Both the position numbers and the translations under genes were made by a program. From a virus, in the IMG/VR virus record IMGVR_UViG_3300047476_001158, positions 1-33,937 of that record: 33,937 nt of DNA; one strand, written 5' to 3'. The notes below the pieces were generated by a model. That model was not told the origin of the DNA and searched no databases. It worked only from the letters and a program-made list of their open reading frames with translations. This document shows, piece by piece, positions 185 through 33,365 of the stretch. Numbering within the stretch: position 1 is the first letter of the stretch; every line of letters begins with the position of its first letter.

Positions 185-185
185 T

Positions 186-491: not shown

Positions 492-515
492 CAACATAAA
501 AAAATATCTTATAAG

Positions 516-545
516 AACCCCCTTTATGGGGGTTTTTTGTTTTTT
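516..545 (+). terminator. Rho-independent terminator closing the leftmost unit
   Basis: Seven-pair stem AACCCCC (516-522) / GGGGGTT (528-534) with a 5-nt loop TTTAT, followed by a T-rich tract (533-538 and 540-545, broken by one G). It lies 25 bases after the stop of the 101-aa gene and ahead of the promoter-like element for the gp32-like gene, so it separates two transcription units. Confidence 0.9.
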
Positions 546-568
546 GGAAAAAATATTTGATCGGGTTC

Positions 569-603
569 TTGACTTTTAGGGTATTTGTACCTAATATTGT
601 ACC
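569..603 (+). promoter_or_regulatory. Candidate Bacteroidota-type promoter with possible operator, upstream of the gp32-like gene
   Basis: TTG at 569-571, a 20-bp spacer, then TAATATTG at 592-599. This matches the TTG-N17-23-TAnnTTTG pattern described for Flavobacterium promoters except at one base. The same stretch also reads as TTGACT-17 bp-TAATAT, a near-consensus sigma70 promoter. The heptamer TTGTACC occurs twice in direct orientation (585-591 and 597-603), overlapping the -7 element, and GGTA-TTTG-TACC forms a small inverted repeat at 580-591. That arrangement resembles an operator. It lies just after a terminator and just before a replication gene. Binding by any protein is inference. 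Confidence 0.55.
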
Positions 604-622
604 ATAACAAAAATAAATTATT

Positions 623-9126: not shown

Positions 9127-9543
9127 ATGGCAATAAAAAAACAAACATTTGGTATAGATTTCCCGTTTGTGAATTCGAATAGTGGCGATTATGTTGGGTT
9201 AACAACAATACCTGAATCAGAGGTTAAAGCTATGTTAATCCATTTACTATTAACTAAAAAGGGGTCTAGATATTTCTTACCAGATTTTGGTACGAATTTG
9301 TATCAATACATATTTGAGCCATTGGATGATATCACTTTGGGTAAGATAGAAGCTGAAATTCAAGACGCTGTTGAAAAATACATCCCAAATTTGAAATTAA
9401 ATGATGTCGTCATTACTAGAGTTGGTGATGAAGAAAGGTATAAAAATGATACTGAGAGAGAACATCAGATTAGAATAAATCTAGATTACACAATAACAAC
9501 AAAAACGTTCCAGACAAGCGATAAACTGGCTATAACACTATAA
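9127..9543 (+). CDS. Baseplate wedge protein, gp25 (gpW/lysozyme-like) family
   Basis: A small core component of contractile-tail baseplates that joins the sheath start to the wedges. The 138-aa length is close to T4 gp25 (about 132). It has the family pattern: GIDFPF near the N terminus (9-14), then LLLTKKGSRYFLPDFGTNLY (40-59), where the G-x-R-x-x-x-P-x-F-G-x-x-L signature is clear, then FEPLDD (63-68) and an amphipathic helix IEAEIQDAVEKYIPNL (74-89). A beta-strand end (IRINLDYTITT) completes the fold. It is the first gene of the structural cluster and lies three bases before the gp6 gene, a pairing typical of contractile phages. Confidence 0.92.
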   Translation: MAIKKQTFGIDFPFVNSNSGDYVGLTTIPESEVKAMLIHLLLTKKGSRYFLPDFGTNLYQYIFEPLDDITLGKIEAEIQDAVEKYIPNLKLNDVVITRVGDEERYKNDTEREHQIRINLDYTITTKTFQTSDKLAITL

Positions 9544-9546
9544 AAA

Positions 9547-11358
9547 ATGGCAAGACAAATAAATTACAGTAAAAGAGATTTTGCGTCCTTAAAAACGGAG
9601 CAAATCAATTACATTAAACAGTATTACCCAGAGGTTGTACAGAATTTTAACGATGCATCAATATTATCGGTATTCTTAGATTTGAATGCCGCTATTGCAG
9701 ATAACTTAAACTATCAGATTGACCGTGCGTTACAAGAAACAGTTTTAGATTATGCCCAGGAAAGACAATCTTTGTATAACATTGCTAAAACATACGGTTT
9801 AAAGCTACCAACTAAGTCAGCAGCTGTCGCTGTTGTTGAGTTTACAGCGCAAGTGCCAGTTTATGGTGATCAGGAAGACAAAAGATATCTACCGATAATC
9901 AAAGCGGGTACCCAGGTTAGTAATGGCGCTGGCGCTTATGAGGTGTTATATGACATTGATTTCGCTTCAGCGACCAATAGTTCTGGTAATGTCGATAGAA
10001 CTAAAAGACCGATTTTCGTAAACAATAAATTAACTGGTTATACTATCACAAAAACAGGTATCGTTGTGGCTGGATCTAGCAAAGTTTACACACAGGCGTT
10101 CTCGACAACCCAACCTTTCTATAAAATAACGTTACCAGAAAATAACGTACTGTCGGTTGATTCGATAATACATAAAACTGGTACAAACTATACAGCAAAC
10201 CCAACTGAGTCTGAATTTTTAAACAGTACTAACAGATGGTACGAAGTTCCGTCATTGGCCGAAGACAATGTTTTCACCGAAGACACGACAGCGCCAAGAG
10301 TTAACGGTATCGCTAAAGGTGTTTACCAAAAAGTTGATAAAAGATACATCACAGAATTTACACCAAATGGATTCTGTCAAATAACATTTGGTGCTCAAAC
10401 TGATTCATCGTTTGATATCCTGGATGATTTTATGGATGGTGGTAGTTTTAGTCTTAAAAGTTTCTTGAGAAACGGTAGTTTAGGTATGGCACCAATCCCA
10501 AACACAACTATGTTCGTTAAATACAGAATAGGTGGTGGAGTTGAATCAAACACAGGTGTTGGGACAATTACCGACATCGCTAGATTAAGTGTTGTCATTA
10601 ACGGGCCAGATCAAAATATTAATTCAACTGTACAAGCGTCAATTGGGGTTATTAATACAACACCAGCTGTTGGTGGTTCTGATGAACCGACAATCGAAGA
10701 ATTAAGAAATTATATCGCATACAACTTCTCAGCTCAGAATAGGGCTGTAACACTAAATGACTACAAAGCTTTGATCATGTCAATGCCTAGCGTATTTGGT
10801 TCACCAGCTAAAACAAGTATAACACAGAGACAAAATAAAATCGAGATCGGTGTGTTAACTTATGATGCTAATGGTGCGATATCAAATGTTGTTTCATCTT
10901 TATTGATGGAAAACATCGCTGCATATCTTTCTAAGTATAGAATGATTAACGACTATGTGATTGTTAAACCAGCTGAAGTTGTTGATTTAGGTTTCGAAAT
11001 AAGTGTATTGGTTGAAACTGGTCAACAAGTTCAAGCATCTGCTAAAATAACCAATGTGGTTAAGGGTGAATTTACTACTGATAAAACAAATCTTGGTAAG
11101 AGTTACAGTGTTGGCGAGATGATTAAGAAAATCACACAAGTTGACGGGGTGTTAAATGTTAACTATATTAAAGCTTATAACAAAACAGGTTCTGGGTATT
11201 CATCCAATACAACAAAACAAACAATAATTGATACAGCAACTGGTGAGATTGATATTACAAACAATTACATCATTGTTGAGGAATATCAAATGCTTAATAT
11301 TAAAAAACCTGATGTTGATATTAAGGTTATACCAATTATAGCAACAGGAATTAATTAA
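9547..11358 (+). CDS. Baseplate wedge protein, gp6 / gpJ-like family
   Basis: A wedge subunit that dimerises around the baseplate hub and carries the conformational change of contraction. The 603 aa compare with about 660 in T4 gp6. The N-terminal part shows the family pattern: a start INYSKRDFASLKTEQINYIK, then NDASILSVFLDLNAAIADNL (37-56) and ALQETVLDYAQERQSLYNIA (62-81), the helical region conserved from gp6 to gpJ. A middle beta-rich region follows, then the C-terminal gpJ-like segment with ELRNYIAYNFSAQNRAVT and DYKALIMSMPSVFGSPAKTS, and a ferredoxin-like end with the IEIGVLTYDANG strand. Its position directly after gp25 supports the call. The next gene starts two bases after its stop. 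Confidence 0.9.
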   Translation: MARQINYSKRDFASLKTEQINYIKQYYPEVVQNFNDASILSVFLDLNAAIADNLNYQIDRALQETVLDYAQERQSLYNIAKTYGLKLPTKSAAVAVVEFTAQVPVYGDQEDKRYLPIIKAGTQVSNGAGAYEVLYDIDFASATNSSGNVDRTKRPIFVNNKLTGYTITKTGIVVAGSSKVYTQAFSTTQPFYKITLPENNVLSVDSIIHKTGTNYTANPTESEFLNSTNRWYEVPSLAEDNVFTEDTTAPRVNGIAKGVYQKVDKRYITEFTPNGFCQITFGAQTDSSFDILDDFMDGGSFSLKSFLRNGSLGMAPIPNTTMFVKYRIGGGVESNTGVGTITDIARLSVVINGPDQNINSTVQASIGVINTTPAVGGSDEPTIEELRNYIAYNFSAQNRAVTLNDYKALIMSMPSVFGSPAKTSITQRQNKIEIGVLTYDANGAISNVVSSLLMENIAAYLSKYRMINDYVIVKPAEVVDLGFEISVLVETGQQVQASAKITNVVKGEFTTDKTNLGKSYSVGEMIKKITQVDGVLNVNYIKAYNKTGSGYSSNTTKQTIIDTATGEIDITNNYIIVEEYQMLNIKKPDVDIKVIPIIATGIN

Positions 11359-18153: not shown

Positions 18154-19047
18154 ATGGGAATAGGTGTATATGGCGTTAAAAGGCCAGCAGATGTGGACCC
18201 TTCAGATATAGAAGTTATTGTTTTATACAGTAAGAACAGAAATGCTACTGAAGCTCAAAAAGTAACAAAATTAAACGGTACTGACGTTATTAAACCAGTA
18301 TTTGACCCAACTAACACCCTAGAGGTTTTAGGTGGTATGTACAACCTAGAATTACCCAAAAGCGTGTTTAACGCTAAAGGTTTCTACACGGTTTACATCA
18401 GACCAGCTCAGATAAGAGTTCAAATCGAAGATTGTGCTGAGTTAGCAACATTCCCAGACATTAAAGGTTTGGTATTGAACATAGATTCGGCACCAAATGG
18501 ATTTAAAAGCAAATTCAGTAATAATGGTTTAGATGGTTACAGAGTTGAATACCTTAACGATAACGGGAGTAAAGTACAAAACTTATACAGAGTTATCACA
18601 TCATCATTTATCGTTGAACCTGTTCAGGTTGACACACCTAATAGCTCAGTTAAAACGATTAAATACACATATAACAACGTAGGATCTTTATTATTCTGTA
18701 CGGTAACACCAAATGCCGCACCAAGCTTCAAGCCAACTGCAACACCATTCATTGGTTTTAAAGGCCAGAACATTGTGTTAACAAACACTAGTTTTACACC
18801 ACAAGTACTTGAAGTTGAGTTAGTTAACTATGATGCTGAAAGTTTAGCAATCGCTTTATATTCAGATCAGACTAAATCGATGGAAGACGGTATCTACACA
18901 TTGTATGACTTTGACGGCAACATTTACGCTCAATACGATTTATATGAGATTAAAGATGCTACAAATAAGAAATTATTTGAGGTTAGAACAAGAAGAAATA
19001 ATATAGACTCAACAAAGACATTAAATAACATAGTAGGAAATGGCTAA
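18154..19047 (+). CDS. Unknown 297-aa beta-rich structural protein
   Basis: Starts two bases after the preceding stop and overlaps the giant gene by 8 nt (ATGGCTAA), so it is probably translationally coupled to it. The protein is nearly all predicted beta strand, for example GFYTVYIRPAQIRVQIED, YRVEYLNDNGSKVQNLYRVI and GIYTLYDFDGNIYAQYDLYE, with Ig-like spacing. Two cysteines in the 120-220 region are isolated. No enzyme motif is visible. Immediate linkage to the giant protein makes a joint structure (for example an attachment collar) a reasonable guess, but that is inference. Confidence 0.78.
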   Translation: MGIGVYGVKRPADVDPSDIEVIVLYSKNRNATEAQKVTKLNGTDVIKPVFDPTNTLEVLGGMYNLELPKSVFNAKGFYTVYIRPAQIRVQIEDCAELATFPDIKGLVLNIDSAPNGFKSKFSNNGLDGYRVEYLNDNGSKVQNLYRVITSSFIVEPVQVDTPNSSVKTIKYTYNNVGSLLFCTVTPNAAPSFKPTATPFIGFKGQNIVLTNTSFTPQVLEVELVNYDAESLAIALYSDQTKSMEDGIYTLYDFDGNIYAQYDLYEIKDATNKKLFEVRTRRNNIDSTKTLNNIVGNG

Positions 19048-22000
19048 TCTTAGTTATACAAATACACCATTAATAGCACACTTATATGACACAGCGGATG
19101 CAGCTATGGCTGCCGCAGCTGATCTTGGGTGTTCTGGTTATAGAACTTATAATATTAATGGTGAAAACAAATATGTACCTTGTTCATCGTTTTTGGCGTA
19201 TGAACAAGCATTAAGATATTACAAAAGCCAGGGGGTTGCTAATCAGATCTCAGGATCTGGTAATATTGGTGATAAAGCGGTTGGTTTACAATTTGCTAAC
19301 GCAAAAGATGAAATCGCTGGTGACCCATTTTTTACTTTAGGTAATTTTTCATTAAACACGTCAGTAACTAAAAAAAGTGCTTCAGGTAAGAATGTTACTT
19401 TAAGTGGTGGTGATAAATCATACACAGCTGAGAGTATTAACAAATTAAACCCAGCTAAAAACACAACACAAAGTGCTGTTGACCAAGTCAATAAAAAGAT
19501 TAACGATAACCTAACGGTTAGAGTTCTTTTTAACAAAAAGAAATTACAAAATTATGTTTTATATGCTCCAATGAAGGAGACTATAAAAAACACGATTATT
19601 GAGATAACACAAAAATACCCAGCTGGTCTTAAATTAAACGTTATTGGTATTTTAACACCTACTGTGTCAGAATACAACTATTCAACAAGTAAGGACACCG
19701 CACAATTTAAAATCAATTTAAGTAACATATTCAACCCATTTGAGATTGAATATACAACAACTGGATCAACAAGGACTGATGATGTTAACATAACCCCGTT
19801 AAGAAACTTTTCTAAGACTTACACTGATTATGTTATCTATTACAAAAACGTTGAATACAAGATATTAAACGCAACATTACCTAGCTCATACAATGATAAT
19901 GAGAATGGTATCTACGTTACAGTAGAGGGTAACCCATTTGTTAATGAGGTTAACAATGATAATAGCGTTAACAGAACTTTTTGGGTAAAACCAAAAATGC
20001 AGAAATACGATGAATTCCAAACAAACTTATCCGATATGGGTCAGTTTTTATTGGATTATGATTATGATAAGAAAAAATATGTCAGTGTAATTCGTTACAA
20101 GAAATTTACAGATCTTGGTGTTGAATTAAACATGAACGAAACATTGGTATTCCCACAATATGATGAGGTTAATATTGATTTGTTTAGCAACGCCTTTGAT
20201 ACTTATTTAACAAAATTAAATACGATATCAGATGATTTTGATGCAACAAAAACTAATTTAATCTCCAGATTTTTAACAACAGACTCTTTAAAAGAGTTTG
20301 ATACCGATGATAGAAGAATAAACTTAATGTTTGGCCTTATCGGTAAGAATTTTGATACCATTAAAAAATATGTTGATGGTATTACTTTCATGACTAACCT
20401 TAGTTATGATAAAATAGAAAATATACCCGACTTATTGGTTAAAAACTATGGTAACATGCTTGGTTTTGAAACCTATAATGTTGAGGATGAAAACACACTT
20501 ATTGAATCGTTATTTGATATTAAAGATTTAAGAATTGAACCTGGATATAAACCAGTTGATATTGATATCGAATTATGGCGTAGAATTTTCATAAACTCAT
20601 ACCACCTTTGGAAATCAAAAGGTACCAGAAAATCTATTGAATTTATTTTAAATCTTGTTGGTTTACCAGATTCAATCTTTGAGGTTAACGAGTATGTTTA
20701 TGTGGCCAGAAATAAAGTTGATTACACACAAAAAGCATACGACTTGTATAAGTCTAACTATAGCGATGAGGTGTTATTGACATTAGTACCTTTTGATAAG
20801 GATGGTTACCCAACTGTACCACCAAGAGTTAAGTACCAAGAATACGGTTTTAGCGTGGCTAACGATGGTAAAAACTTTGGGCCATATGATTTTGGTACCT
20901 TATACATTAGAGCTTACGAAGTTCAAAGTAATGTGGGTATCTTCAACATGGATAGAGTTGCGGATAACGTAAAATCTTGGGTTTATTCTGAAAAACAAGT
21001 TCTTAGATTATCTGAAGACAGTATCGGGTATACCGAATACTATGAGGATGACTCTAGATTAGTGGTAAACTCGAAAGAATTAGAGGTTTATATCTCATCG
21101 GATAAGATCTTTGATTTTACAATGTACAGATATCTAAACAGAAACAGTGTTGATTTAAACGCTGATTTGACGTTTAGAGTTGTGCCAGCTATAAATGCGG
21201 GTGGTCTAACATTTAACCAGTTCTTACAAAAGTCGATGGACAATTACATCAAACCAGACAACAGAAAGACGGTTAAAACATATCCAACATTAACTAAGAT
21301 CTATTATGATTATTTAGCGTCAGCTGGTACCCCTGTAACAAACACAAAAAGTTTAGATTTTTTAAATAAATTTGACTCTTCATGGGTTAAATTAGTACAA
21401 CAATTCACACCAGCAACAACAATATTAAACGCTGGTAAGAAAATACAAAATAGTAAGTTCTTAGATAACAAATTTGTTTATAAACACGGTTTAAATAACA
21501 AAGTTAATTGGTTAGGTACTGACGGTTCTGAGTTCCAGGATTTAGCAAAAAGACCAGTTAACCAAGGTACCACAAATCCATTTGACACAGTTGGTATCAA
21601 AAAAGTACCTCTTGTTGGTGAATCATCTAGTTTCACATTAGTTGGTAACAAAGGTAAGAACTACACAGGTTATGATCCAACTATCAACGAGTATTTTGGT
21701 TTCTACTATAATATTGAAGACGCTTGTAGTAGTGTTGAGGTTTATAGATGGGATGAAAATGAGGATTACGGTGATGATGCCATCTATGGTGGTAATATAA
21801 ACACAGGTTCTGGGGACAGAAAAGGGGTTTATGTTATTTACGAAAACGGACTTTATAGGTTAAATACTAATCAAATGTATGTGTCTGGGTATACAATTAA
21901 TACCAACCCAACACCTTATGTATCACCTAACAACTTGGGTTTAATATATGGTACTAATAACACAGTAGCCATATCACTACCAAATGGTCCTGGTAAATAC

Positions 22001-25000
22001 TTAGTTGAATTTACCGTAAATGGTGAAGATGATTTAGAGATTTATGATGGGACAATTTCGGGTGTTTTATTAGGCGGTATCGGTGCTTCAACAGGTACCA
22101 CAACATATTCTGAGATTTTAACATTTACAACAGACACGTTAACGATTTTAAATTTATTTAATTTAAACAATAACGTAATAATCTCAGATTTTACCGCTGG
22201 ACTCCATAGCAATACACCAAACTCATTTGGGGTATACGAATTCTTACCGCTAAACACTGATGCTAGTACGGTAACGTTTAAAGACAGTTTACCAACAGCG
22301 ATATCAATAGCTGAAAGAAACTATTATATTGAAGCTGTATCAATAGGACACGCTTATTTGGCGGCAAATATTGATTACGTTTGTCCTGTACCTAAACCAC
22401 ATACATGTTACTACGATTACAGTGGTTTAACAATCAATATGGCAACGGTTGGTATCACAGATTACTATGACGAAACTGGTCAATATTTAACAATTGAACA
22501 ATCAAAATACTACGGGTATTCTAAAAACACCGCAACAACAGAACCAGACGATGCCGTTTATGGTAATGCTGGTGATTGGGTGGTTCCTTTTAGAAAAACA
22601 AATGCCTGGACAAATGGTGTTGTATACTACGCTGGTGATGTTGTTACTAAATCTTCAGTTAACTATTTGGTTACTGGAGCTACTGTAACAGGTTATACGG
22701 TTTCTGGTGTACCAACTGGTACAACAACGACAACAATTGTTCCTGGTATGTACCAGGCGTATTTAAATAGGGTTAAAACAGACCCATACATGCATATTGA
22801 CGCTGCATATATTAAAAGATTAAGGGTTAACCCTTTCAATGATGTTGTATCGATTAATTTAACTAAAAATCTTTACTTATACCAAGTTTATAGTGGTGCG
22901 ACCCAAACTGAAACATATAAAGTTGTCAATAACGTTTTAAATGATGAGCTTTACATTAGCGAATCATCTACATTAACCTTTGATGGTTTCTATTCATTGG
23001 ATGAAACTAAAGTGGGTCCATTCTATACCGCTAATACTGATGAGATTTTAGTTAATACTTTAATCGATGAGTTGGAGCTTGCCCCAGATAAAGACAATTA
23101 CATTGACATTAAATCTTTAAACGAAAGTTTCAATGTTGTAAATAATAGTGTTAGTTTATCTGATGGTTATTATTTAGTAAAACAAAACGGTTTCTTAAAA
23201 TTTGAGGCTGATTTATATTTTGAGTCTGAATTGGTTATTCCACAAAACCTTTCGATTAAATTGTTAGACCAATTTGGGACAATTTACCATGAAGAGCTAT
23301 TTAATTTTAGCGGTGGTGACAGTAGCCAAGATAGAGTGGCAAATGTTAGTTTTGAGGGTATGTTTGCTGTTGACACTAGACTTTATCTAGTGGTTAACCC
23401 AGAAACATATGGTTGTACTTTAAAAAGATACGAAAAAATTGATTACGACTACATAGAACCAACAACCTATTCATCAATAGATGACCCTAGATTTAGGGTA
23501 TATTTCAATGGTGGTAGAACTCTTATTGATGGGCATTATATGGACGATGTTTTATCCATAGAACCGATTGGGGATAACGTAAATTTCCAAGTTGAGCATA
23601 ATCTATTTAAAACTAACACGGTTTTAGATACATACAAGTTTAGACCAAGACCAAGTATAGGTCAATCATATGATGAAGCTAACGCTTTTGGTTTAATCTA
23701 TGGTAAGTTTTATGAAAAATTTAAAACAACTAGTACCATTGGTGATGTAACTGTTTATGAAAAAGGTTTTAATAACGATAAAATTGATTTTGAACTAACA
23801 GTTAGATCAAAAGCAGCACCATCGTTATTACCAGAGGATCAATCACAAAATGGTATTAAAAAATCATACACCATAACATCAACAAACAATTACCTGGGTA
23901 ACACACCACAGGAAGCTGATGATATGGGTATAACAAAAAATATCATTATCGGTAAAAACCCAAAACCTAGATTAAAAACATTAAATAAACAAGACTTCCC
24001 ATTCTTGAGATATCTTAAGAATGAAACCGTTATAAACAGTAGTGCATCAACAATTGATTTTGTTGGTTATGATAGTGGTTTTGCTGATTATGATTTAGTT
24101 AGTTACACTGGTGACACAATCAATAATTTAATCGCAAAAACAAGATATCAGAATGCAACTGGTTACTGGAAAAAAGAAAACGTTGTTTACAACACACAGT
24201 TATATAAAGATATTTTAGCGGTTGTACCTGAGTTTAACCCAACGATTAATAATTACCAAATTAACGACATAGTTAAAGTTGTATTAAGTAATTATGACGT
24301 TGTTGTTGAGACAGCTACTGGTACAACAATTGAAACAAAAACAGTTGAAAGATTATACGTTTGTATTGAAGATATTACAAGCAATCACCTTAGAAAGAAA
24401 ACAGGTGTGGCTTATTCAATGAACATACACCCAATTTATCAACCAAATGGTGCTAGAGCTTCTTTCATACCAATTGAAAAATATGACTTAAAATCGTTTA
24501 CACCAATTGGTTACGACAAGTTTGATAGATATTCTTCGGTTAAAACAAAAATTAAACCATACACGTATAACGCAGCTATATTACTAACGAATTCACCAAC
24601 CCAGAAATTTAATTTAGGGGATATCATTAGAACTGGTAATAACTCATCTTACACATATTATGAATACGTTTATAATAAATCATTAGTTTTCGAATCGGGT
24701 AATACCTACCCAGTTGGATCATTTGTTTATTATAACGCTTCAACGTATGGGTCTGACAGTACATTTAGTTTCTGGATGAAGAAAACAGGTACTGGTACAT
24801 CAACACCAGCAACTGGGGCTAACTGGCATGAATTTAGACCAACTGGTACTACGACAAATAACTTATTCTATACTAAGAATGATGTAATCCCTGTCTATGC
24901 ACCATATTTGGCATTAACACCAGCAGCGTTTAGAGTTAAAAATTTAATACCAACTCAAATTAGTGCGGGTGGTGATCAATACTATACAACACTGGGAACT

Positions 25001-26368
25001 GGTTTTACAGATACGGTTATTGCTGATGCGGTACCTAATTACTTACCAAGTGTTAGTACAGCTGGTGAATTAGACGGTACTGATATGTCAGCATACTATC
25101 TTGTTACTGGTACAACAGTACAATATTCTGGTGGCTCAAATAGTTTGTATACTGGATACACTCTAGAGACTAACCTTATACAAAATGATTACACAAGTGT
25201 TACTAATAGAACAATCACTGGTATAACATTAGCAGATAACAACATTATCAATAACATTAAACCTTTGTTCGAAAGATTGTGTTCAAATGTTGATGATGAT
25301 AGTATATATGACTGGTCATCAACAAGATTGTATACGGTTAACACAACAAGAATGAGTACAAAGTATAGCTTGGGTAGAAACGTTCTATATAGAGCGATTA
25401 ACCAGACATCTGGTTCTAACGCAACAGAACCATATTTAAGTACAACTAGATGGGAAGAATACGATTTCATGTTGGTTAAAAAATTCACATACCACAAAGA
25501 TAGAACTAAAGTTAAAATTTATGAGGGTACTGTTGAATCTTTGGACACAGCGACTAAAAACAGTTTATATTTCTTTAAAAATAACCTAACTTTAAAATCA
25601 GGTTTTGCTGAGAACTCTTTTAGCGGATCAACTAAGAATAATAAATTATTGACTGGTGTTAATAAATTATTTGACGCTAAGAATGAAAACTTAAGAGATG
25701 TTGCTCAATACGGAGTTGCTGGATTTAGAAAATCTGGATCGGATATTATAATGGATTACTATTATGACAGGGATGATAACAATTTACCATTAACAGGTGA
25801 ATTTATAGGTGGTTTAACAATAACAAACCCTTGTGGACATCATGCGAAGGTAATATTCGGTGTTTTATTTGACGCTGATTTAACATCATTAAGTCAGTTA
25901 TATCCTAGAAAACAAACAGGCCCAGCGGTACCTGTTATTGCTAGCACAACATATAACCCTAACGTTAGGTTAATCGTTAACCAATTCGGTGCGACTAAGA
26001 TGACTGTTACGATATCTGGACCAAATATGACTACGATCACTAAGGTATTGGCTAAAAACCAATCAATTGACGACACGATATCGGTGATAAAAGGTGATAA
26101 CATAACAATTAGTGTTACTTACGATACTAATAAAAACCTTACCAGATATAAGAGTGGTAATGTTGATGGATACACATTATATAATGCAAGTGATGCGGGT
26201 ATTGATAATACTTTCATAACAGCAACAAAAACTTCTGTTGGTAAGATTCTTACTAGAACGATCAAACTTAAAGACCTGTATGAAGATAGGGTGGTTAAAT
26301 TAGATTTTGAGGGTGCAAATTATATAGAATTAGCAACAGTTGATCCAGCGGACTACATAAAATTATAA
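19040..26368 (+). CDS. Giant tail/baseplate protein, 2442 aa, with a tail-protein-I-like segment and chitin-binding-like repeats
   Basis: The longest gene of the window. Residues 1-100 are Ala/Gly/Tyr-rich; a beta-rich part follows. At about 515-545, LWRRIFINSYHLWKSKGTRK followed by SIEFILNLVGLP resembles the K-G-T helix motif of P2 gpI-type baseplate proteins, preceded by helices (LPDLLVKNYGNMLGFETY). From about 560 to the end it is mostly beta-rich. Three stretches resemble CBM5/12 (ChiA1-type) modules: W1190 onward (AWTNGVVYYAGDVVTKSSVN), 1884-1931 (ending PATGANWHEF) and W2092-W2138 (LGRNVLYRAI, then STTRWEEY). A fourth, weaker one lies near 1730. The likely role is a wedge-to-fibre protein with glycan-binding arms on the outside of the virion; this is inference. 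No signal peptide or membrane helix is seen, and the frame is intact throughout. Confidence 0.85.
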   Translation: MANLSYTNTPLIAHLYDTADAAMAAAADLGCSGYRTYNINGENKYVPCSSFLAYEQALRYYKSQGVANQISGSGNIGDKAVGLQFANAKDEIAGDPFFTLGNFSLNTSVTKKSASGKNVTLSGGDKSYTAESINKLNPAKNTTQSAVDQVNKKINDNLTVRVLFNKKKLQNYVLYAPMKETIKNTIIEITQKYPAGLKLNVIGILTPTVSEYNYSTSKDTAQFKINLSNIFNPFEIEYTTTGSTRTDDVNITPLRNFSKTYTDYVIYYKNVEYKILNATLPSSYNDNENGIYVTVEGNPFVNEVNNDNSVNRTFWVKPKMQKYDEFQTNLSDMGQFLLDYDYDKKKYVSVIRYKKFTDLGVELNMNETLVFPQYDEVNIDLFSNAFDTYLTKLNTISDDFDATKTNLISRFLTTDSLKEFDTDDRRINLMFGLIGKNFDTIKKYVDGITFMTNLSYDKIENIPDLLVKNYGNMLGFETYNVEDENTLIESLFDIKDLRIEPGYKPVDIDIELWRRIFINSYHLWKSKGTRKSIEFILNLVGLPDSIFEVNEYVYVARNKVDYTQKAYDLYKSNYSDEVLLTLVPFDKDGYPTVPPRVKYQEYGFSVANDGKNFGPYDFGTLYIRAYEVQSNVGIFNMDRVADNVKSWVYSEKQVLRLSEDSIGYTEYYEDDSRLVVNSKELEVYISSDKIFDFTMYRYLNRNSVDLNADLTFRVVPAINAGGLTFNQFLQKSMDNYIKPDNRKTVKTYPTLTKIYYDYLASAGTPVTNTKSLDFLNKFDSSWVKLVQQFTPATTILNAGKKIQNSKFLDNKFVYKHGLNNKVNWLGTDGSEFQDLAKRPVNQGTTNPFDTVGIKKVPLVGESSSFTLVGNKGKNYTGYDPTINEYFGFYYNIEDACSSVEVYRWDENEDYGDDAIYGGNINTGSGDRKGVYVIYENGLYRLNTNQMYVSGYTINTNPTPYVSPNNLGLIYGTNNTVAISLPNGPGKYLVEFTVNGEDDLEIYDGTISGVLLGGIGASTGTTTYSEILTFTTDTLTILNLFNLNNNVIISDFTAGLHSNTPNSFGVYEFLPLNTDASTVTFKDSLPTAISIAERNYYIEAVSIGHAYLAANIDYVCPVPKPHTCYYDYSGLTINMATVGITDYYDETGQYLTIEQSKYYGYSKNTATTEPDDAVYGNAGDWVVPFRKTNAWTNGVVYYAGDVVTKSSVNYLVTGATVTGYTVSGVPTGTTTTTIVPGMYQAYLNRVKTDPYMHIDAAYIKRLRVNPFNDVVSINLTKNLYLYQVYSGATQTETYKVVNNVLNDELYISESSTLTFDGFYSLDETKVGPFYTANTDEILVNTLIDELELAPDKDNYIDIKSLNESFNVVNNSVSLSDGYYLVKQNGFLKFEADLYFESELVIPQNLSIKLLDQFGTIYHEELFNFSGGDSSQDRVANVSFEGMFAVDTRLYLVVNPETYGCTLKRYEKIDYDYIEPTTYSSIDDPRFRVYFNGGRTLIDGHYMDDVLSIEPIGDNVNFQVEHNLFKTNTVLDTYKFRPRPSIGQSYDEANAFGLIYGKFYEKFKTTSTIGDVTVYEKGFNNDKIDFELTVRSKAAPSLLPEDQSQNGIKKSYTITSTNNYLGNTPQEADDMGITKNIIIGKNPKPRLKTLNKQDFPFLRYLKNETVINSSASTIDFVGYDSGFADYDLVSYTGDTINNLIAKTRYQNATGYWKKENVVYNTQLYKDILAVVPEFNPTINNYQINDIVKVVLSNYDVVVETATGTTIETKTVERLYVCIEDITSNHLRKKTGVAYSMNIHPIYQPNGARASFIPIEKYDLKSFTPIGYDKFDRYSSVKTKIKPYTYNAAILLTNSPTQKFNLGDIIRTGNNSSYTYYEYVYNKSLVFESGNTYPVGSFVYYNASTYGSDSTFSFWMKKTGTGTSTPATGANWHEFRPTGTTTNNLFYTKNDVIPVYAPYLALTPAAFRVKNLIPTQISAGGDQYYTTLGTGFTDTVIADAVPNYLPSVSTAGELDGTDMSAYYLVTGTTVQYSGGSNSLYTGYTLETNLIQNDYTSVTNRTITGITLADNNIINNIKPLFERLCSNVDDDSIYDWSSTRLYTVNTTRMSTKYSLGRNVLYRAINQTSGSNATEPYLSTTRWEEYDFMLVKKFTYHKDRTKVKIYEGTVESLDTATKNSLYFFKNNLTLKSGFAENSFSGSTKNNKLLTGVNKLFDAKNENLRDVAQYGVAGFRKSGSDIIMDYYYDRDDNNLPLTGEFIGGLTITNPCGHHAKVIFGVLFDADLTSLSQLYPRKQTGPAVPVIASTTYNPNVRLIVNQFGATKMTVTISGPNMTTITKVLAKNQSIDDTISVIKGDNITISVTYDTNKNLTRYKSGNVDGYTLYNASDAGIDNTFITATKTSVGKILTRTIKLKDLYEDRVVKLDFEGANYIELATVDPADYIKL

Positions 26369-26396: not shown

Positions 26397-29123
26397 ATGA
26401 GCTATATAATTAAGAAAAATGATCCCCTTGTTAATGTCAAATTAACAAATAACGGTAGGAGAAATTTGGCTGAAGGTACCTTAAATTTCACATATTTTGG
26501 ACTTGGTGATAGTGAGATGAACTATACAACCGATGATATACCTAATGTGAACATTTTAAGACCATCTGATAACGCTTTCAATATGAACTATCCTGTTAGT
26601 TCAGACGGTACTAACATCGTGGTACCAATAACATTAGTTAATGCAATACCTAACGAGGTTTATACAACAGCGATTGAAAGAGGTTTTTTCGAATACACAG
26701 GGACTACAATACACCCAGTGGTTGATTTAGCTAGTTTATATAACATCACTGGTACAACACTTGGGTCAACAAACTCAATCACGTTTGAATTTACAGCAAA
26801 TAGCTCAAAAAACATTAATTACGTTGATTTAAAACCAGGTGATTATCTTTTCGTAAAATACGAGACAGATAATTACGTTAGTGGTGCAACATATTCACAA
26901 TCAGTTGAAATCACAGAACCAAATCAATATCTTTGGTACTCTATTCAAACTGTAACAACAGCTGATTCTGGTGATAACCAAACATTGACTGGTATAACAA
27001 CTGGTACGACAATAATCGTAGTGGTTGACAGACAATTACCAGTTGGTGCAGCTAACTTAACAGGTTTTGTTTACCCAGGTAAAGATACGATAAAAGATTA
27101 TTACGATAACCCAACACCTTTAGCATACTGGCAGGGTGGTTTATTGGATTTTTCAAACAACAACACTCAATCAGAATTGGATGTACCTGTTTGGAATATG
27201 AATATAATTAACATCGAAGATGTTATTGGTTTAAACCCAGTTACGGATAAATCAAAATATGATGTTGTATCAAGTGACTATCTTGGTGCGGCCATAAAAT
27301 ACAACCAATACAATGTAAGATCTAAAGTTGGTATCATACACTATACAAACAACACTGTATCAAATTTCTATGGTGAAGGTTTTTATAGATCAACATTAAA
27401 ACTTAAAATACCTTACATAATGTGGCATAAACAACAATTCACAAGTACACCAACAACTGTTGGGTATACGTTTGTTGCTGACACTGAATTAAAAACAATG
27501 ACTGTTAGCGCTGAATTAGGGCTTGGTGGTTCTACTTTCCAATACTATGATTTAGTTGACCAGGAAACCGATAAAAATGTTGTCGGTAAAGTCCTTATTG
27601 ATGAAAAAGTTATTCTTATTGAAGACCCAGAATTGTTATCTGTGTTATCACATAAAGCTAACAGAAACTGGACATTACCTAAACCAATTTTAACATTAAC
27701 AGAACCAGGTATTTGTGGTAACACTAGTACAGTTGGTTCAGTACAACCAGGTGAATATTTCTTTGCTTCATATTTGTTTACCGATACAAACGGTATAACT
27801 GGTATGCAATGTGAGGATTACACGATGATATACAATGACACCGACAAACCTAAAGATGTTTTATTTGAATTTAACAAGAAGACATCTGATCCAAACTATA
27901 GTGAGTTTAATTTCTTAAAGGATTATAACGACACAACTGGAACTGGTTTTAAAACTAATCAGATATTCCTATTATGGCAAAAATCTGAAACACCTATAAA
28001 ACCAGATTCAACAAACTGGTCTTATGTGGAAGTTAGTGAGTATTTGGGTACAAATGGTTGTGTAACTGGTGTTATGAAAATTAACGGTACTGAGTTTGAA
28101 TTGCATGCTGATATTTTTGACTACGCTAACGACCTTTTACTAACCCACCCAACAATTAACTTATCAACATTTGATGCGTTTGAATTAGGTGAAACACAAG
28201 TTGGTGAGATTATCGTTATTTTCAACGGTACGGTACAAAAACAAGCCTCTGACGACACGTTGTCTGATGGTGATTACTACCTATACCCTAACTCAAGTGG
28301 TATCGTTGGACCAAACGGTAGAAGTGTGATCGTATTTGGTCAAGGATATGGTGTATCAGGTGATTTATTACAGATATATTATTTGATTGGTACTAGTGTA
28401 ACAGCTAAAACAATCAAACAAGTGATATCGGTACCATCTTTGGCAACAATTAACTCAAACACAAATGCTGATCCGATTTACAAATCAACGATTGCACCAA
28501 ATAGGATATCGCTTAAATTAGATAAGCAGCCAAATAACTCCACAGTGTGGTTGTTCTATAAAGGTATGTTACTTTCATCAGCAACATATGGTGTTTTTGT
28601 TACGAACGAAACAATTGATGATAGACGTGTTGAATTAAACTTTACACCAGCACAAGGTAGTGAGATAACAATGTTCTATTTGGATAACTCAGGTCTTGGC
28701 CAGGTGGTTTCAACAAATGTTCTTACAAAAGATACGATAGCAGCATTAAGGGTAAATATTGATCAATATATACTTGACAATAGTGAGACTGATCTTTATC
28801 TTTTAACCGATTATATTGATTTACCATCGGTTACTGAGACGGATAAATTTACATTCGGTGATGAGGTGTTCTTTTATGGAAACATTGAGACAGACATAAA
28901 AGCTACCATCTATAAAACACAATTAACATGTAATGTTTTACCAAATCAGTTTATAGCATCACAAAACCCAACATTTAATCCTGATCAGGATAAAGTTGCT
29001 TTTACTGAGATAGCTATTTACGATAGTAACAATATAGTTGTGGCGACTGGTAAGTTTTCAGAACCAGTAACAAGAAAATATAATTCTGATATGTTAGTAT
29101 TACAAGCAACAATTGATTTCTAA
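26397..29123 (+). CDS. Structural protein with an LTxxGR N-terminal module, 908 aa (tail/baseplate or adhesin)
   Basis: The N terminus has VKLTNNGRRNLAEGTLNFTY followed by FGLGDSEMNY (residues 14-43). The same module pattern (LTxxGRxxL, then F-x-(L/I)-x-D-x-x-x-NY) opens the proteins at 29123 and 31259. The centre contains KVGIIHYTNN, STLKLKIPYIMW and KVLIDEKVILIEDPELL. The C terminus has VAFTEIAIYDSNNIVVATGK followed by FSEPVTRKYNSD. All of these have weaker counterparts in the 618-aa protein at 31509. The intervening sequence is Gly/Thr/Asn-rich and beta-like. It follows the giant gene behind an AT-rich promoter-like element and shares one base with the next start. It is probably a virion component of the outer baseplate or fibre; no enzymatic motif is seen. 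Confidence 0.8.
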   Translation: MSYIIKKNDPLVNVKLTNNGRRNLAEGTLNFTYFGLGDSEMNYTTDDIPNVNILRPSDNAFNMNYPVSSDGTNIVVPITLVNAIPNEVYTTAIERGFFEYTGTTIHPVVDLASLYNITGTTLGSTNSITFEFTANSSKNINYVDLKPGDYLFVKYETDNYVSGATYSQSVEITEPNQYLWYSIQTVTTADSGDNQTLTGITTGTTIIVVVDRQLPVGAANLTGFVYPGKDTIKDYYDNPTPLAYWQGGLLDFSNNNTQSELDVPVWNMNIINIEDVIGLNPVTDKSKYDVVSSDYLGAAIKYNQYNVRSKVGIIHYTNNTVSNFYGEGFYRSTLKLKIPYIMWHKQQFTSTPTTVGYTFVADTELKTMTVSAELGLGGSTFQYYDLVDQETDKNVVGKVLIDEKVILIEDPELLSVLSHKANRNWTLPKPILTLTEPGICGNTSTVGSVQPGEYFFASYLFTDTNGITGMQCEDYTMIYNDTDKPKDVLFEFNKKTSDPNYSEFNFLKDYNDTTGTGFKTNQIFLLWQKSETPIKPDSTNWSYVEVSEYLGTNGCVTGVMKINGTEFELHADIFDYANDLLLTHPTINLSTFDAFELGETQVGEIIVIFNGTVQKQASDDTLSDGDYYLYPNSSGIVGPNGRSVIVFGQGYGVSGDLLQIYYLIGTSVTAKTIKQVISVPSLATINSNTNADPIYKSTIAPNRISLKLDKQPNNSTVWLFYKGMLLSSATYGVFVTNETIDDRRVELNFTPAQGSEITMFYLDNSGLGQVVSTNVLTKDTIAALRVNIDQYILDNSETDLYLLTDYIDLPSVTETDKFTFGDEVFFYGNIETDIKATIYKTQLTCNVLPNQFIASQNPTFNPDQDKVAFTEIAIYDSNNIVVATGKFSEPVTRKYNSDMLVLQATIDF

Positions 29124-29503
29124 TGGGTTTTATTAAACGAAATAAATATACTTTCGAGATATATCTTACCGATAAGGGTAGAGAAGCCTTTGTTAACAGA
29201 GGTTTTAAAAATACGGTTGCGTATTTTTCACTAATCGATAACACGAATTACCAGCAAATGTCTGGTTTCGATGTTAACGTTTTAACAGGGCAAACAATAC
29301 CGACAATTAAATATTATGATAACACAGAGATTAACGAAAGCGATGAAGTATACACGCAGAATTCTAACAGGGGTTCCGTGGATAATAACATTCAGTTCAC
29401 AAATGGTTTTTTGGGGGTGTCACAGACAGCTGAGAATAACTATATCGTATATGAACCAGATATTTCGCCAGAAACATTAAGCATAACAACATTTAAAGAC
29501 TAA
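29123..29503 (+). CDS. Small structural protein with an LTxxGR module, 126 aa
   Basis: Starts at a TAATG overlap with the 908-aa gene. Residues 12-43 (EIYLTDKGREAFVNRGF, then a linker and YFSLIDNTNY) form the module shared with 26397 and 31259; the first three residues, MGF, are the same as in 31259. The rest is short, acidic and polar (EINESDEVYTQNSNRGS) and ends without a clear motif. The protein looks like the module plus a short tail, perhaps an adaptor that binds the same docking site as its larger relatives. The next ATG follows one base after the stop. The structural role is inferred. Confidence 0.78.
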   Translation: MGFIKRNKYTFEIYLTDKGREAFVNRGFKNTVAYFSLIDNTNYQQMSGFDVNVLTGQTIPTIKYYDNTEINESDEVYTQNSNRGSVDNNIQFTNGFLGVSQTAENNYIVYEPDISPETLSITTFKD

Positions 29504-29504
29504 G

Positions 29505-30560
29505 ATGGCTAGACAATATAACCTTAAAAATTTTAATGGTATACACTTAAAATCACCATATGATTATGATTCGTATAACACGAATGGTGTTAGTGCATTG
29601 ATCGAAAATTTTGATTTGTACCCATTAAAAAGTACCGATGTTACGAATTTCCATTTTATCAACAGTTCAGTTAGGCTTGTTGATCAAAGCTCAATTTATT
29701 ATGGGGAAATACTAGGTGATGGTTTTATTGGGGATAATCTATTTGTTACCAGAACACACGATTTAACTTATTCACAAATAAGAAAAGATAATGAATTGGT
29801 TAAGGGCGAGAAGTATTACAATGAATTTAATTTTTATTTTAATTTTGGTGGTGCCGATGCCTCTGGTTTTGAGATTGGTAGTACGGGTTACACTATAAAT
29901 GTTAGTTTATACGCTATATTAGGTAATACAAAAAGAAAATTAAAGTTAACGGACTTAAGTGTATACGATTATAAAAACCCAACGTACAGTGGGACAAAAA
30001 GTAATCCAGTTGATGCTGGGTATGTTCCAATAACAACAACAGGATACACCCTATATAACGATTATGTTGAGGTAACCAGCGATAATATCGTCATGTCCTT
30101 CCTACCCCAACCTAAAATATACGATATTGTTATTAACGTGGGTGCAACATTTTCCTATGTCTTTGTTCAAGGCGATAGCGGACAACCTAATTATGGTGAT
30201 GCTGTTGGTGTATCTTTAACAGGACCAGCGGCAGCACGTAGAATATCTTTTCAAAAACCAACTTGGGGTCCAATACCCCCTGGATATGATGAAAACGTTG
30301 ATTATCAAATAATAGATAACGGGTTTGATCAAAGTGAGATAGCACCATTCGATGTTATGACAGGACCTTTATTTAGGGTTAAAGCGGCATTGGATGTTTC
30401 TTCACAATCAGAATTTGATTCCAACATTTGCACAGGTAACAAGGAGTATAAGATAATGGTTGATTATAACGGGACAATGTCTAAAACAATAATAACTTAT
30501 GAAATGGATACGTTTAAGGACGAAGCTTCTTTACTACCAGTCACACCATTACCAGCTTAA
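29505..30560 (+). CDS. Unknown structural protein, 351 aa
   Basis: Follows the previous gene by one base. The N terminus MARQYNLKNFNGIHLKSPYD is followed by beta-rich sequence with many Tyr, Gly, Asp and Asn, such as YYNEFNFYFNFGGADASGFE. A Pro-rich turn (PTWGPIPPGYDE, about 260-271) precedes the last strands. A single Cys lies near residue 310. No enzyme, glycan-binding or coiled-coil signature is visible. Its place between LTxxGR-module proteins suggests a component of the same virion structure. Family unknown. Confidence 0.77.
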   Translation: MARQYNLKNFNGIHLKSPYDYDSYNTNGVSALIENFDLYPLKSTDVTNFHFINSSVRLVDQSSIYYGEILGDGFIGDNLFVTRTHDLTYSQIRKDNELVKGEKYYNEFNFYFNFGGADASGFEIGSTGYTINVSLYAILGNTKRKLKLTDLSVYDYKNPTYSGTKSNPVDAGYVPITTTGYTLYNDYVEVTSDNIVMSFLPQPKIYDIVINVGATFSYVFVQGDSGQPNYGDAVGVSLTGPAAARRISFQKPTWGPIPPGYDENVDYQIIDNGFDQSEIAPFDVMTGPLFRVKAALDVSSQSEFDSNICTGNKEYKIMVDYNGTMSKTIITYEMDTFKDEASLLPVTPLPA

Positions 30561-30570
30561 TTAAAAATTT

Positions 30571-31173
30571 ATGGCAACTCTTCAATACGGAACCAAAGTA
30601 GTAAAGGTAATGCCTACCTTTAGTTTTGTTATACCTAAAAACAACTTTTACATTAACACACCAGGTTTTAGTGTCAACGCAACAACCGATAAGTATTTAT
30701 CCCTTGAAAAAGAAGGTAAATTCAACATCTTAAACACAAATACAAAGCCGATATATTTTAGTGATATAACCTTTGTTAAAGCAACACCCAGAGATTCGGA
30801 ATTAAAATCTAGGCTAAATTACATCAAAGTTTTATTGACTAACACATATGAAACTGAAACAAAGTATTACCAGGAATACACGGTATCAGTCAATGGTATT
30901 GTGACTGGTGTATTGACAATTGTTACTGATTTGGGTACAATAGGTTCGAATAGATCTATCGTACCGTTAACAAAACTAGAATTTGCCGCTTTTTATGAGG
31001 TAAAAAATCTTGGCCAGCTAAGTAAACATTATTACGGTAAAACAACAAACAATCCGTTAAAAAGGGTTGGTATTGTGGATTTTACCTTTAATCTAAAGGC
31101 TTACGGTGACAAAGAGTTAACTAAAGTAATAAACGAAGATCTTGTTATCTCAACAATTTTGGTAAATACGTAA
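30571..31173 (+). CDS. Unknown structural protein, 200 aa
   Basis: Begins ten A/T-rich bases after the previous stop. The N terminus, MATLQYGTKVVKVMPTFSFV followed by IPKNNFYINTPGF, is strand-like. The centre (VSVNGIVTGVLTIVTDLGTI) is hydrophobic but broken by polar residues, so a beta sheet is more likely than a membrane helix. It has no cysteine. The C-terminal part has VGIVDFTFNLKAYGDKELTK. I do not recognise it. It is the last gene before an 85-bp gap with a stem-loop and promoter-like sequences, so it may end a transcription unit, although no T-run terminator is present. Confidence 0.77.
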   Translation: MATLQYGTKVVKVMPTFSFVIPKNNFYINTPGFSVNATTDKYLSLEKEGKFNILNTNTKPIYFSDITFVKATPRDSELKSRLNYIKVLLTNTYETETKYYQEYTVSVNGIVTGVLTIVTDLGTIGSNRSIVPLTKLEFAAFYEVKNLGQLSKHYYGKTTNNPLKRVGIVDFTFNLKAYGDKELTKVINEDLVISTILVNT

Positions 31174-31185
31174 AAAATACAAATG

Positions 31186-31216
31186 AGGCTATATTTATAA
31201 TAAGAAATAATAGCTT
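31186..31216 (+). other. Stem-loop in the gap before the 81-aa module gene
   Basis: AGGCTATATTT (31186-31196) pairs with AAATaATAGCTT (31205-31216) over 11 pairs, including one G-U, with a bulged A at 31209 and an 8-nt loop. No T-run follows, so it is not a classic terminator. It contains TATTTATA at 31192-31199, the core seen before 9127 and 26397, but here 67 rather than 20 bases before the ATG. It could be an RNA processing or stability element. Confidence 0.4.
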
Positions 31217-31244
31217 GACTTATATAATAAAATTAATATTTTTA
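31215..31244 (+). promoter_or_regulatory. Weak promoter-like sequence before the 81-aa module gene
   Basis: TTG at 31215-31217, a 19-bp spacer, then TATTTTTA at 31237-31244, which differs from TAnnTTTG only at the last base. A transcript would begin just before the ATG at 31259. The surrounding DNA is so A/T-rich that chance matches are likely, so this is a tentative call. Confidence 0.25.
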
Positions 31245-31258
31245 AATAAAAAAACAAT

Positions 31259-31504
31259 ATGGGGTTCGTACCACAAAGCGGAAGCACCGATGAAATTAAA
31301 GTTTACCTAACAGAGTTGGGTAGAAGAAGACTTTTGGAACAAGGTTTCATACCAGCACAATTCTCTATATCTGATGAAGATGGTAACTATAATGCGTTAT
31401 CGACTGTTGATCAGATTGTTACAGATATTACTGGTGACTACAATGATAATGTTTATGCAATATCAAAGAACATTACAATAAAAGGCCAAATCTTAAGAAA
31501 ATAA
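31259..31504 (+). CDS. Stand-alone LTxxGR-module protein, 81 aa
   Basis: Residues 14-45 (IKVYLTELGRRRLLEQGF, then PAQFSISDEDGNYN) are the module shared with the 908-aa and 126-aa proteins. Almost nothing else is present: a polar N terminus MGFVPQSGSTDE and a short strand end VYAISKNITIKGQILRK. It lies four bases before the 618-aa gene, whose C terminus resembles that of the 908-aa protein. The pair therefore looks like a split form of that protein, or the 908-aa gene like a fusion of such a pair. It is probably a virion adaptor. The gene call is supported by family resemblance despite the small size. Confidence 0.8.
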   Translation: MGFVPQSGSTDEIKVYLTELGRRRLLEQGFIPAQFSISDEDGNYNALSTVDQIVTDITGDYNDNVYAISKNITIKGQILRK

Positions 31505-31508
31505 TATA

Positions 31509-33365
31509 ATGAGCGCAATATTAAAAGTTAGAATCCCATATTACGGTAGAACCATTTCGACAGGTACAGATGGTGTAGCCGAATTCTATTTACTAGAAAA
31601 ACCAAAATATGTACCAGCTTTAAATCAGACGGTTGTCATCACCCACACAGAGGTATCATCTAGCACTGGTTTAAACACAAAATTAACAAATATTTCAACT
31701 AACACTGTTTTAGGTAGATTCCAGGCCGCACCAGATTTGTCATCTAACGCAACTGCGATTGCTGCGAACGGTGGTTATAGTTACTTATACACAATTGCTT
31801 ACAACGATACTGAGTTTTCTCAACCACAATATGGTGGTACTTGTCGTGGGTATATTGAATTTGATTACAATCCAGCTAACTACAACATTTTAAAACCTGT
31901 TGAAAGCGTTGTTGTTGTAAACGAAACGGTACCTTTTGATTTGGCGAACGGCTTCCAAGCTTTGAACCATAATTTTACAGGTGCGACATTAAACTCAACT
32001 GATATTTTACCAGGATTTTTTGTTGGTAGACAAGATAACAACACAATCTTTGCTAACTTATTAAAATCACTTAACCTACCTGTTACTGATGAAGAGTACA
32101 AAAAATACTCAAGATCAGCATACGGTGTTTTGAGTGTAGCTGGTACAAACGATGCTGTTGCTGTTAGAAAAAACGGTATTAATTACAAATGGACTGCAAT
32201 CACATCAGCATACACTGGAACAACAGATGCGTTGTTAGTGCACCCAACAACTGGATATACAGGTGAATATTACAACACTGTTATACAAACAATCGGTTGT
32301 AATGAATTCGAGGCAAACAAACCATGGAATCTTCCAGTACCGAATGACATGTACTTAATTTTTGAGGTACCTAATAATAAGTATGGTGAGATCATAGACG
32401 GTAAAACTGTTAAATTTACTTTACCTTATTATGTTGGTACAGCATCAGTTGATCCAGATGAAAAACGTTTAGGTATCATGACTTACGTTGGTTCTGAAAC
32501 AACAATTGATTTGTACGGTACATATAACGAGGCTGGTATCAATAACAACTTAGATAGAAAATTATCTGAACCAAACATCAGTTTGTCAACTTTAGGTGTT
32601 AGGCCTGATTTAGCTAATGTTAGTGAGACAACTTATGAAAGTAATGTTGTTCTTTTATTCTGTGATGATATCGCAGCTCCATCGGCTAACTTTAATAACT
32701 GGGGTGATGGTTACACTGAAGTACTTAACGGTACTAAAGTTTTCTCACCAACAGCACAGGAAAAACCAACTTACAACTATAAAAATGATACTTGTGTTGG
32801 TGCTGCTTATCTTGATAAAGGTTTTATCGTTATAACACACCCAATGATTGTTGACTCATACTTTAAAGCCATTTTTAATGGTGATATCGTAACCGCTGGT
32901 ACAACAAACGTGCTTAAGAATTATGATTTAGTTAATGGTATCACTACTGACACCAGAGGTGATGTTAGAACAACTGTTTCTGGTGATACTGAGCAACTTA
33001 TTGTAACTAAAGATGGTACTGATATCCTATGGGATAGCACACAATTTATCTACACTGGTACTCAGGTATCTGAATTAACTTACAATAGTTATAACACTGA
33101 AAAATCATTAAACGTTGTTTGTTTAGCTTCATCAGATGAGTTCTTTAAATCATCAAACGATACAGCTAAAGAATTACAAGGAGTTGCCCAAACTGAAGAC
33201 TACGCTTCATTTAAATCAACAAACGGTGATTTATATCCAGTGATCATTACTCAATTAGGTATTCACGATGCCCAGGGTAATTTATTAGCAATTTGTAAAC
33301 CAACACAGCCAATTAAAAAGTATTGGTATGATGTTGTGTCATTCAACGTGAAAATAAGATTATAA
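31509..33365 (+). CDS. Structural protein, 618 aa, related to the body of the 908-aa protein
   Basis: Starts four bases after the 81-aa gene. The N terminus, MSAILKVRIPYYGRTISTGT, is followed by beta-rich sequence. Shared landmarks with the 908-aa protein are KTVKFTLPYYVG, RLGIMTYVGSETTIDLYGTY, YLDKGFIVITHPMIV, and a C-terminal YPVIITQLGIHDAQGNLLAI followed by CKPTQPIKKYWYD. The last pattern (T-x-(L/I)-x-I-x-D-x-x-x-N-(L/I)-(L/V)-A, then K-x-x-x-P-(I/V)-x-(K/R)-K) is the clearest match. Order differs in part: the G-I-(I/M)-x-Y strand precedes the L-P-Y / I-P-Y strand in one protein and follows it in the other. It has no enzyme motif and is probably a virion surface or baseplate component. It is the last structural gene seen. 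Confidence 0.8.
   Translation: MSAILKVRIPYYGRTISTGTDGVAEFYLLEKPKYVPALNQTVVITHTEVSSSTGLNTKLTNISTNTVLGRFQAAPDLSSNATAIAANGGYSYLYTIAYNDTEFSQPQYGGTCRGYIEFDYNPANYNILKPVESVVVVNETVPFDLANGFQALNHNFTGATLNSTDILPGFFVGRQDNNTIFANLLKSLNLPVTDEEYKKYSRSAYGVLSVAGTNDAVAVRKNGINYKWTAITSAYTGTTDALLVHPTTGYTGEYYNTVIQTIGCNEFEANKPWNLPVPNDMYLIFEVPNNKYGEIIDGKTVKFTLPYYVGTASVDPDEKRLGIMTYVGSETTIDLYGTYNEAGINNNLDRKLSEPNISLSTLGVRPDLANVSETTYESNVVLLFCDDIAAPSANFNNWGDGYTEVLNGTKVFSPTAQEKPTYNYKNDTCVGAAYLDKGFIVITHPMIVDSYFKAIFNGDIVTAGTTNVLKNYDLVNGITTDTRGDVRTTVSGDTEQLIVTKDGTDILWDSTQFIYTGTQVSELTYNSYNTEKSLNVVCLASSDEFFKSSNDTAKELQGVAQTEDYASFKSTNGDLYPVIITQLGIHDAQGNLLAICKPTQPIKKYWYDVVSFNVKIRL

Follow-up and report, generated by a model that had tools for sequence, protein, structure and literature searches.

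A repeated N-terminal piece in a phage baseplate-region gene cluster is best read as the front half of a two-part domain related to PF12571

Why should neighboring genes of a tailed phage encode proteins that begin with the same short piece and then continue into quite different bodies? This question is raised by the window analyzed here, the whole 33,937-nucleotide (nt) stretch of IMG/VR record IMGVR_UViG_3300047476_001158 (positions 1-33,937), which derives from an uncultured phage read as contractile-tailed. The initial annotation of this stretch had proposed that the piece, found in three proteins here designated A, B and E, is a docking module attaching different parts to one repeated site on the virion. 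The finding reported below is larger: it is best read as a domain of the tail-fiber attachment type in two halves, related to PF12571 (Phage_tail_fib, DUF3751), the N-terminal domain of the P2 protein gpH. In this reading, the two-part domain lies on one chain in A and is divided between two genes in the pair E/F and in relatives. The proteins concerned and their modules are as follows.

26397..29123, + strand: protein A, 908 amino acids (aa), with an N-half at its start, a C-half at its end (both by profile) and ~800 residues between them
26397..26531, + strand: N-half of A, residues 1-45 (by profile; family-only profile against gpH P 1.9e-4)
28977..29120, + strand: C-half of A, residues 861-908 (A against F P 8.8e-8; family-only against gpH P 9.4e-7)
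29123..29503, + strand: protein B, 126 aa, with an N-half module
29123..29254, + strand: N-half of B, residues 1-44 (by profile comparison)
29505..30560, + strand: protein C, 351 aa, corresponding to the rear part of a longer protein whose front is B in three relatives
31259..31504, + strand: protein E, 81 aa, an N-half module plus ~35 residues
31259..31396, + strand: N-half of E, residues 1-46 (by profile comparison; family-only against gpH weak, P 0.084)
31509..33365, + strand: protein F, 618 aa, with a C-half module at its end and without an N-half
33219..33362, + strand: C-half of F, residues 571-618 (by the A against F profile comparison; family-only against gpH P 2.6e-5)

Orthologues were gathered from viral contigs and the resulting family profiles were compared pairwise. 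The three N-terminal modules lie at the starts, and with the letters, given by the initial annotation, and constitute the first ~45 residues of open reading frames (ORFs) of 908, 126 and 81 aa. Their mutual resemblance goes beyond chance, with profile-profile P values of 9.9e-7 for A against B, 9.2e-7 for A against E and 1.9e-12 for B against E, as against values of at least 0.0086 in nine control profile pairs. Profiles built from a single family recover the others from the 112 ORFs on both strands of the window: that of A alone detects B (E 7e-4) and E (E 4e-3) ahead of the next ORF at 0.28, and that of E alone detects B (1.6e-8) and A (6.9e-5) ahead of a next best of 1.3. Going by these comparisons, the N-modules of A, B and E are homologous. 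One-family profiles revealed no further N-module carrier among the 112 ORFs, and the baseplate-region ORFs 11361, 13600, 15264, 17375 and 18154, tested as extra carriers of a module, yielded none; a weak match of ORF 11361 to the C-profile (E 0.017) fell to P 0.32 on re-test, and this candidate was rejected.

A second shared piece, absent from the initial annotation, is located at the opposite end of the chain. The last ~45 residues of A and F are homologous (profile-profile P 8.8e-8), a C profile built from A alone detects the C-half of F at E 1.3e-6 among the same 112 ORFs, and the rear half has a motif of the form TEIGIYDxxxxLVAIGKxSxP. The modules are distributed such that A has both, E only the first and F only the second, with E and F encoded by adjacent genes.

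Judged from sequence profiles, the N- and C-modules are best read as the front and rear halves of a PF12571-like domain. For this comparison a gpH profile was made from 12 P2 gpH-type N-terminal domains from phage records, three of which, scanned with Pfam, scored as PF12571; a 13th record (L301) and the 80 nearly identical loci returned by a gpH homologue scan of viral contigs were excluded from it. The wide N profile (121 sequences) aligns to gpH 7-51 (P 1.7e-5; front-half signature LTxxG...L....FxxGD) and the wide C profile (51 sequences) to gpH 86-110 (P 4.8e-8; rear-half signature REIGLYDxxGxLIAV). When joined, the two ends of the A-type proteins align collinearly across gpH 8-113 in a single alignment (P 2.7e-8); in swapped order the C half alone aligns (P 4e-6), and six pieces from the middle of the A-type alignment give P 0.021-0.89. 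The single-family profiles yield the values listed above, together with P 2.9e-3 for the N-half of B; as the N-half of E matches gpH only weakly, E is placed through its similarity to A and B. The initial annotation knew of no named family for the module, and indeed no Pfam, PHROGs or NCBIfam model reaches these proteins directly, but PF12571 emerges as a distant relative once profiles are compared with profiles. In Pfam scans, PF12571 is not matched by A, B, E, F or any scanned relative; P2 gpH itself scores 197.8 bits. Searches of PDB sequences with profiles A1, A5, A6 and P2 gpH returned nothing meaningful, and our literature searches found no description of a split PF12571 domain.

Could the match to PF12571 instead represent convergence of short beta-strand motifs, such that these proteins, with their two end modules, form a baseplate family unrelated to it? 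The silence of the family libraries and the E-family value against gpH speak for this, as does the presence of 107-108-aa neck proteins (Z 5.6-5.9) among the structural matches described below, which may point to a fold common in tails. We nonetheless consider convergence very unlikely, because the controls behave otherwise: the best values among 200 column-shuffled gpH alignments are P 0.028 (N) and 0.013 (C), a reversed gpH gives 0.49 (N) and 0.05 (C), and the order-swapped and middle-piece comparisons fail as noted. The baseplate protein gp8 of T4 gives 0.21 (N) and 0.15 (C). Independently, a Foldseek search of viral models listed tail fiber proteins: that of PaBG at E 0.07 with a probability of 0.98, and that of Achromobacter Mano, itself of the PF12571 type, at E 0.048 with a probability of 0.87. 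Residues 374-406 of RM378 p128, a relative carrying the C-module, also match, weakly (E 0.075), positions 82-114 of phrog_30680, a family that is matched by P2 gpH as well.

Predicted structures bear on whether the two modules belong together. The model of the 908-aa protein A (15-row alignment) has a mean predicted local distance difference test score (pLDDT) of 52.5 and is unusable alone for the end modules. That of the compact A relative L209 (69-row alignment) has a pLDDT of 80.1 and a predicted template-modeling score of 0.76, and shows the N-half as strand-helix-strand (12-37) and the C-half as four strands (667-736). Its best PDB match among 987 aligned chains is chain BD of entry 9h4p from HFTV1, an archaeal siphovirus (Z 9.2, 2.2 Å, 111 residues). 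The alignment covers the model range 9..737, and therefore residues near both ends of the L209 chain fall in one aligned unit. For the model of A itself this chain again ranks first (Z 7.7, 8..908), so that two A-type models share this best match. With its 953 residues the matched chain would, by length, be gp44 (954 aa), which is named the baseplate hub of HFTV1 in the structure record and in PMC12494034. Residues ~422-515 of gp44 align along gpH 30-140. As a separate observation, gp44 (L305) contains 'EEIGLETSTGTLLTRATFETPV' at ~474-492 and 'VREAGLKSGSTLLTRHI' at ~914-930, which look like two copies of the rear-half motif.

These results bear directly on the possibility that each N-module is a complete docking domain for one repeated virion site, the C-module being a separate domain with a separate role. 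Such a view would accommodate the N-modules of B, E and several relatives that have no C-module on their own chain, and branching tail fibers such as those of CBA120 and RaK2 do use shared N-terminal docking domains (PMC10253068). It appears quite improbable, since the N- and C-modules correspond to successive halves of a single known domain and become collinear once stitched, and since the best PDB match aligns both chain ends as one unit. The docking module of the initial annotation is thus real, lies in a baseplate gene cluster and is related to a P2-type domain that would join fiber and baseplate, but its being a self-contained unit on three unrelated bodies is not supported: the N-module is not free-standing and corresponds to the front half of a domain, with the rear half at the C-terminus of A or of F.

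The relatives show how the halves are laid out more widely. One viral scan with an A-type profile gave 474 relative-encoding stretches that passed tblastn, and 79 loci were retained from it; in a genome scan, 245 stretches matched a pattern, none of which coded for a relative. Layouts were counted over 163 loci with 12,343 ORFs, many of them overlapping on one contig, so that distinct proteins were counted separately; the T4 gp8, P2 and PF12571 loci (L059-L187, L293 on) and L001 were excluded beforehand. The 394 module ORFs are all on one strand. Of 311 N-modules, 297 begin at residue 1 and the remainder at residue 3-27, and the C-module ends no more than 15 residues from the C-terminus in all 237. 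By distinct protein, an A-type gene stands alone in 64 layouts, is followed by two N-only genes and one C-only gene in 20 and by two N-only genes in two; three N-only genes with a C-only gene occur once, and the others one or two times each. Both halves are accordingly carried on one chain in 64 + 20 + 2 distinct relatives. The C-only gene begins 1-23 nt past an N-only gene in 18 of the 22 distinct rows that end in this pair; in the window, F starts 4 nt past E.

The same adjacency is seen in named phages. In RM378 the N-half gene p129 (E 2e-8) is directly followed by the C-half gene p128 (E 3e-9) and then by p127, which is weakly N-like. Flavobacterium phage immuto, in a setting that includes gp25, gp6, tail fiber and tail spike genes, has one N-half gene (163) and two C-half genes (164, 165), followed by the tail fiber and tail spike genes, and in Microcystis phage Mel-JY01 a single N-half gene precedes five C-half genes, whose products have 352-954 aa. 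Two irregular loci were also recorded. In the 484-kb uncultured phage LR756508 (L213), an N-half is encoded just ahead of two C-half genes according to tblastn, and the ORF called from usual start codons (14856-15371) begins downstream of it. In L036:5284-7352 (3300047552_001085) the A-type gene, which is without the ~200-aa insert region described below, is broken, with a 608-aa ORF and the C-half in another frame at 7041-7352; a real break and an assembly error are both possible.

Do the proteins with a single module conceal the other half? The termini in question were compared with the profile of the missing half: eight C-termini of N-only proteins show no C-half match (P 0.027-0.58) and nine N-termini of C-only proteins no N-half match (P 0.014-0.6); the positive controls scored 1e-29 to 1.5e-11. 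The missing halves therefore favor completion between chains, although the absence of a match is no proof. If the N-only proteins bore a highly diverged rear half of their own, every protein would be complete and nothing would be shared between chains; those of 205-1119 aa have room for it, and profile searches can miss diverged strands. This alternative is unlikely, given the eight C-termini just mentioned, the persistence of E as a separate ORF of just 80-111 aa in all of its 14 distinct forms, and the C-only proteins that likewise lack a front half. The sizes of the bodies following the N-modules, put at about 860, 80 and 35 aa in the initial annotation, are right as ORFs, but that of B has another origin. 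B and C form a single ORF of 388, 392 or 403 aa in contigs L012, L054 and L055 and are encoded separately, side by side, in the window and the remaining window-like contigs; the ~80-residue body of B is therefore an effect of gene splitting.

Taken together, these results make it probable that the shared N-terminal segment forms the front half of a PF12571-related domain whose rear half stands at a protein end, and that the domain is completed in cis in A or, probably, in trans elsewhere. The data show the homologies, the order of the halves, their location at the ends of proteins and the adjacency of the genes, whereas cross-chain pairing, a place on the baseplate and a part in adsorption are inferred. 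In this proposal the front half would contribute a strand-helix-strand unit and the rear half three or four strands from an extreme C-terminus encoded in the same cluster. In A, both halves would fold together on one chain, so that the large body inserted between them would form a loop suspended from the completed domain. For E/F, RM378, immuto and Mel-JY01, where the halves are on adjacent genes, the domain would probably be completed between two chains, the small N-half protein acting as the socket for one or more C-half proteins, which would supply the bodies. The completed domain would probably sit at the periphery of the baseplate, as in P2, and position adaptor or receptor-binding parts; R-pyocin work (PMC6363177) suggests that the PF12571/DUF3751 domain joins the fiber to the baseplate. 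A bolder version has a tail-fiber attachment domain cut into two polypeptides and the adsorption apparatus assembled by cross-chain domain completion: a single small N-half protein would serve as a universal socket, receiving the C-terminal ~45 residues of several different C-half proteins, as would be the case for the one socket gene ahead of five plug genes in Mel-JY01. We rate this tentative possibility as rather doubtful.

Several observations weigh against the proposal. B has an N-half, and no spare C-half gene follows it, so that the window has three N-halves and two C-halves; in four of the 22 rows, 436-473 nt separate the N-only gene from the C-only gene. E is the weakest member, and its match to gpH is not significant by itself or in the E+F pair (P 0.08). 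The family libraries (Pfam, PHROGs, NCBIfam) do not assign these proteins to PF12571, and none of five profiles shows significant sequence similarity to the HFTV1 hub (P 0.064-0.42). The match of the A model lies under the safe level of the tool, its pLDDT being 52, and the contact between the halves is read from the alignment range of predicted models.

Comparison with known systems reveals partial precedents. P2 gpH has both half motifs in the same order and a tail location; it differs in that its domain is a contiguous ~150-aa unit at the N-terminus of the fiber, whereas here the halves lie at opposite chain ends or in two genes. RM378 has an N-half gene directly ahead of a C-half gene; its p127-p129 are annotated as hypothetical, and the 28.6 kb examined contain no large A-type protein with both halves. 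It belongs to the Far-T4 phages, and the words baseplate and gp8 are absent from the passages of PMC4360716 examined; literature searches on Far-T4 with baseplate and on Mel-JY01 gave no result, and the terms 'immuto' and 'mass spectrometry' are absent from PMC7077304. In CBA120 (TSP1-4) and RaK2 several receptor-binding bodies are joined via conserved end domains; these phages use T4 gp10-like XD domains, and the passages of PMC10253068 examined do not describe a split-domain scheme. A possible XD-type likeness in the present proteins is confined to an insert of A:

28095..28685, + strand: insert of A, residues 567-763, two small beta domains, absent in the compact relatives L203-L209

The insert is modeled with a pLDDT of 80-89 over most of its length. 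Residues 671-763 resemble CBA120 TSP4 187-250 (Z 7.5, 1.3 Å over 63 residues), which is the possible XD-type likeness, and residues 567-666 resemble 170-276 of the T4 baseplate chain 5iv5_A (Z 6.1). These modeled likenesses, to the N-terminal region of TSP4 and to a T4 baseplate chain, would suit A as a baseplate adaptor. A homology to T4 gp8, a baseplate wedge protein whose gene lies two places past gp6 in T4, was also considered, prompted by gene order and by eye; with 44 gp8 sequences the profile P values were 0.098-0.77, and this candidate was set aside as unproven, although a shared fold may exist.

The remaining genes of the window place the cluster A-F in its context.

9127..9543, + strand: gp25-type baseplate wedge protein (phrog_261, E 1.5e-18)
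9547..11358, + strand: gp6-type baseplate wedge protein (phrog_6, E 2.5e-22)
19040..26368, + strand: 2442-aa giant protein directly 5' of A, carrying an RR..N....KSKGT motif that weakly recalls P2 gpI
30571..31173, + strand: protein D, 200 aa, conserved in the cluster, with neither module detected

The giant protein has the KSKGT-type motif at the right place for gpI/gp7; its profile comparison with gpI is not significant (P 0.032), and it has no match to Pfam Tail_P2_I. The RR..N....KSKGT motif was also seen in 21 further segments chosen by the KGT pattern. Protein D is kept within the cluster across the collected window-like contigs and shows no family match above the curated cut-off. The stop of A and the start of B overlap as TAATG. 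The gap ahead of E (31174-31258), 85 nt long and AT-rich, is the longest in the cluster and possibly a regulatory spot. A gene for a RuvC-like resolvase comes after F, and the window also encodes replication functions, namely a recombinase, an exonuclease, a helicase and a ribonucleotide reductase.

The relationships described here link a large group of tail proteins of aquatic phages, so far without a name, to the known tail-fiber domain PF12571. They also offer a search rule for adsorption proteins that the family libraries leave unnamed: a rear-half motif at an extreme C-terminus, with a front-half gene upstream. Should pairing across chains occur, this would be an unusual modular way of attaching receptor-binding parts, and the termini might be usable as a tag-and-socket pair. 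If the universal socket were true as well, swapping or adding a receptor-binding part would require just a C-terminal tag of 45 residues.

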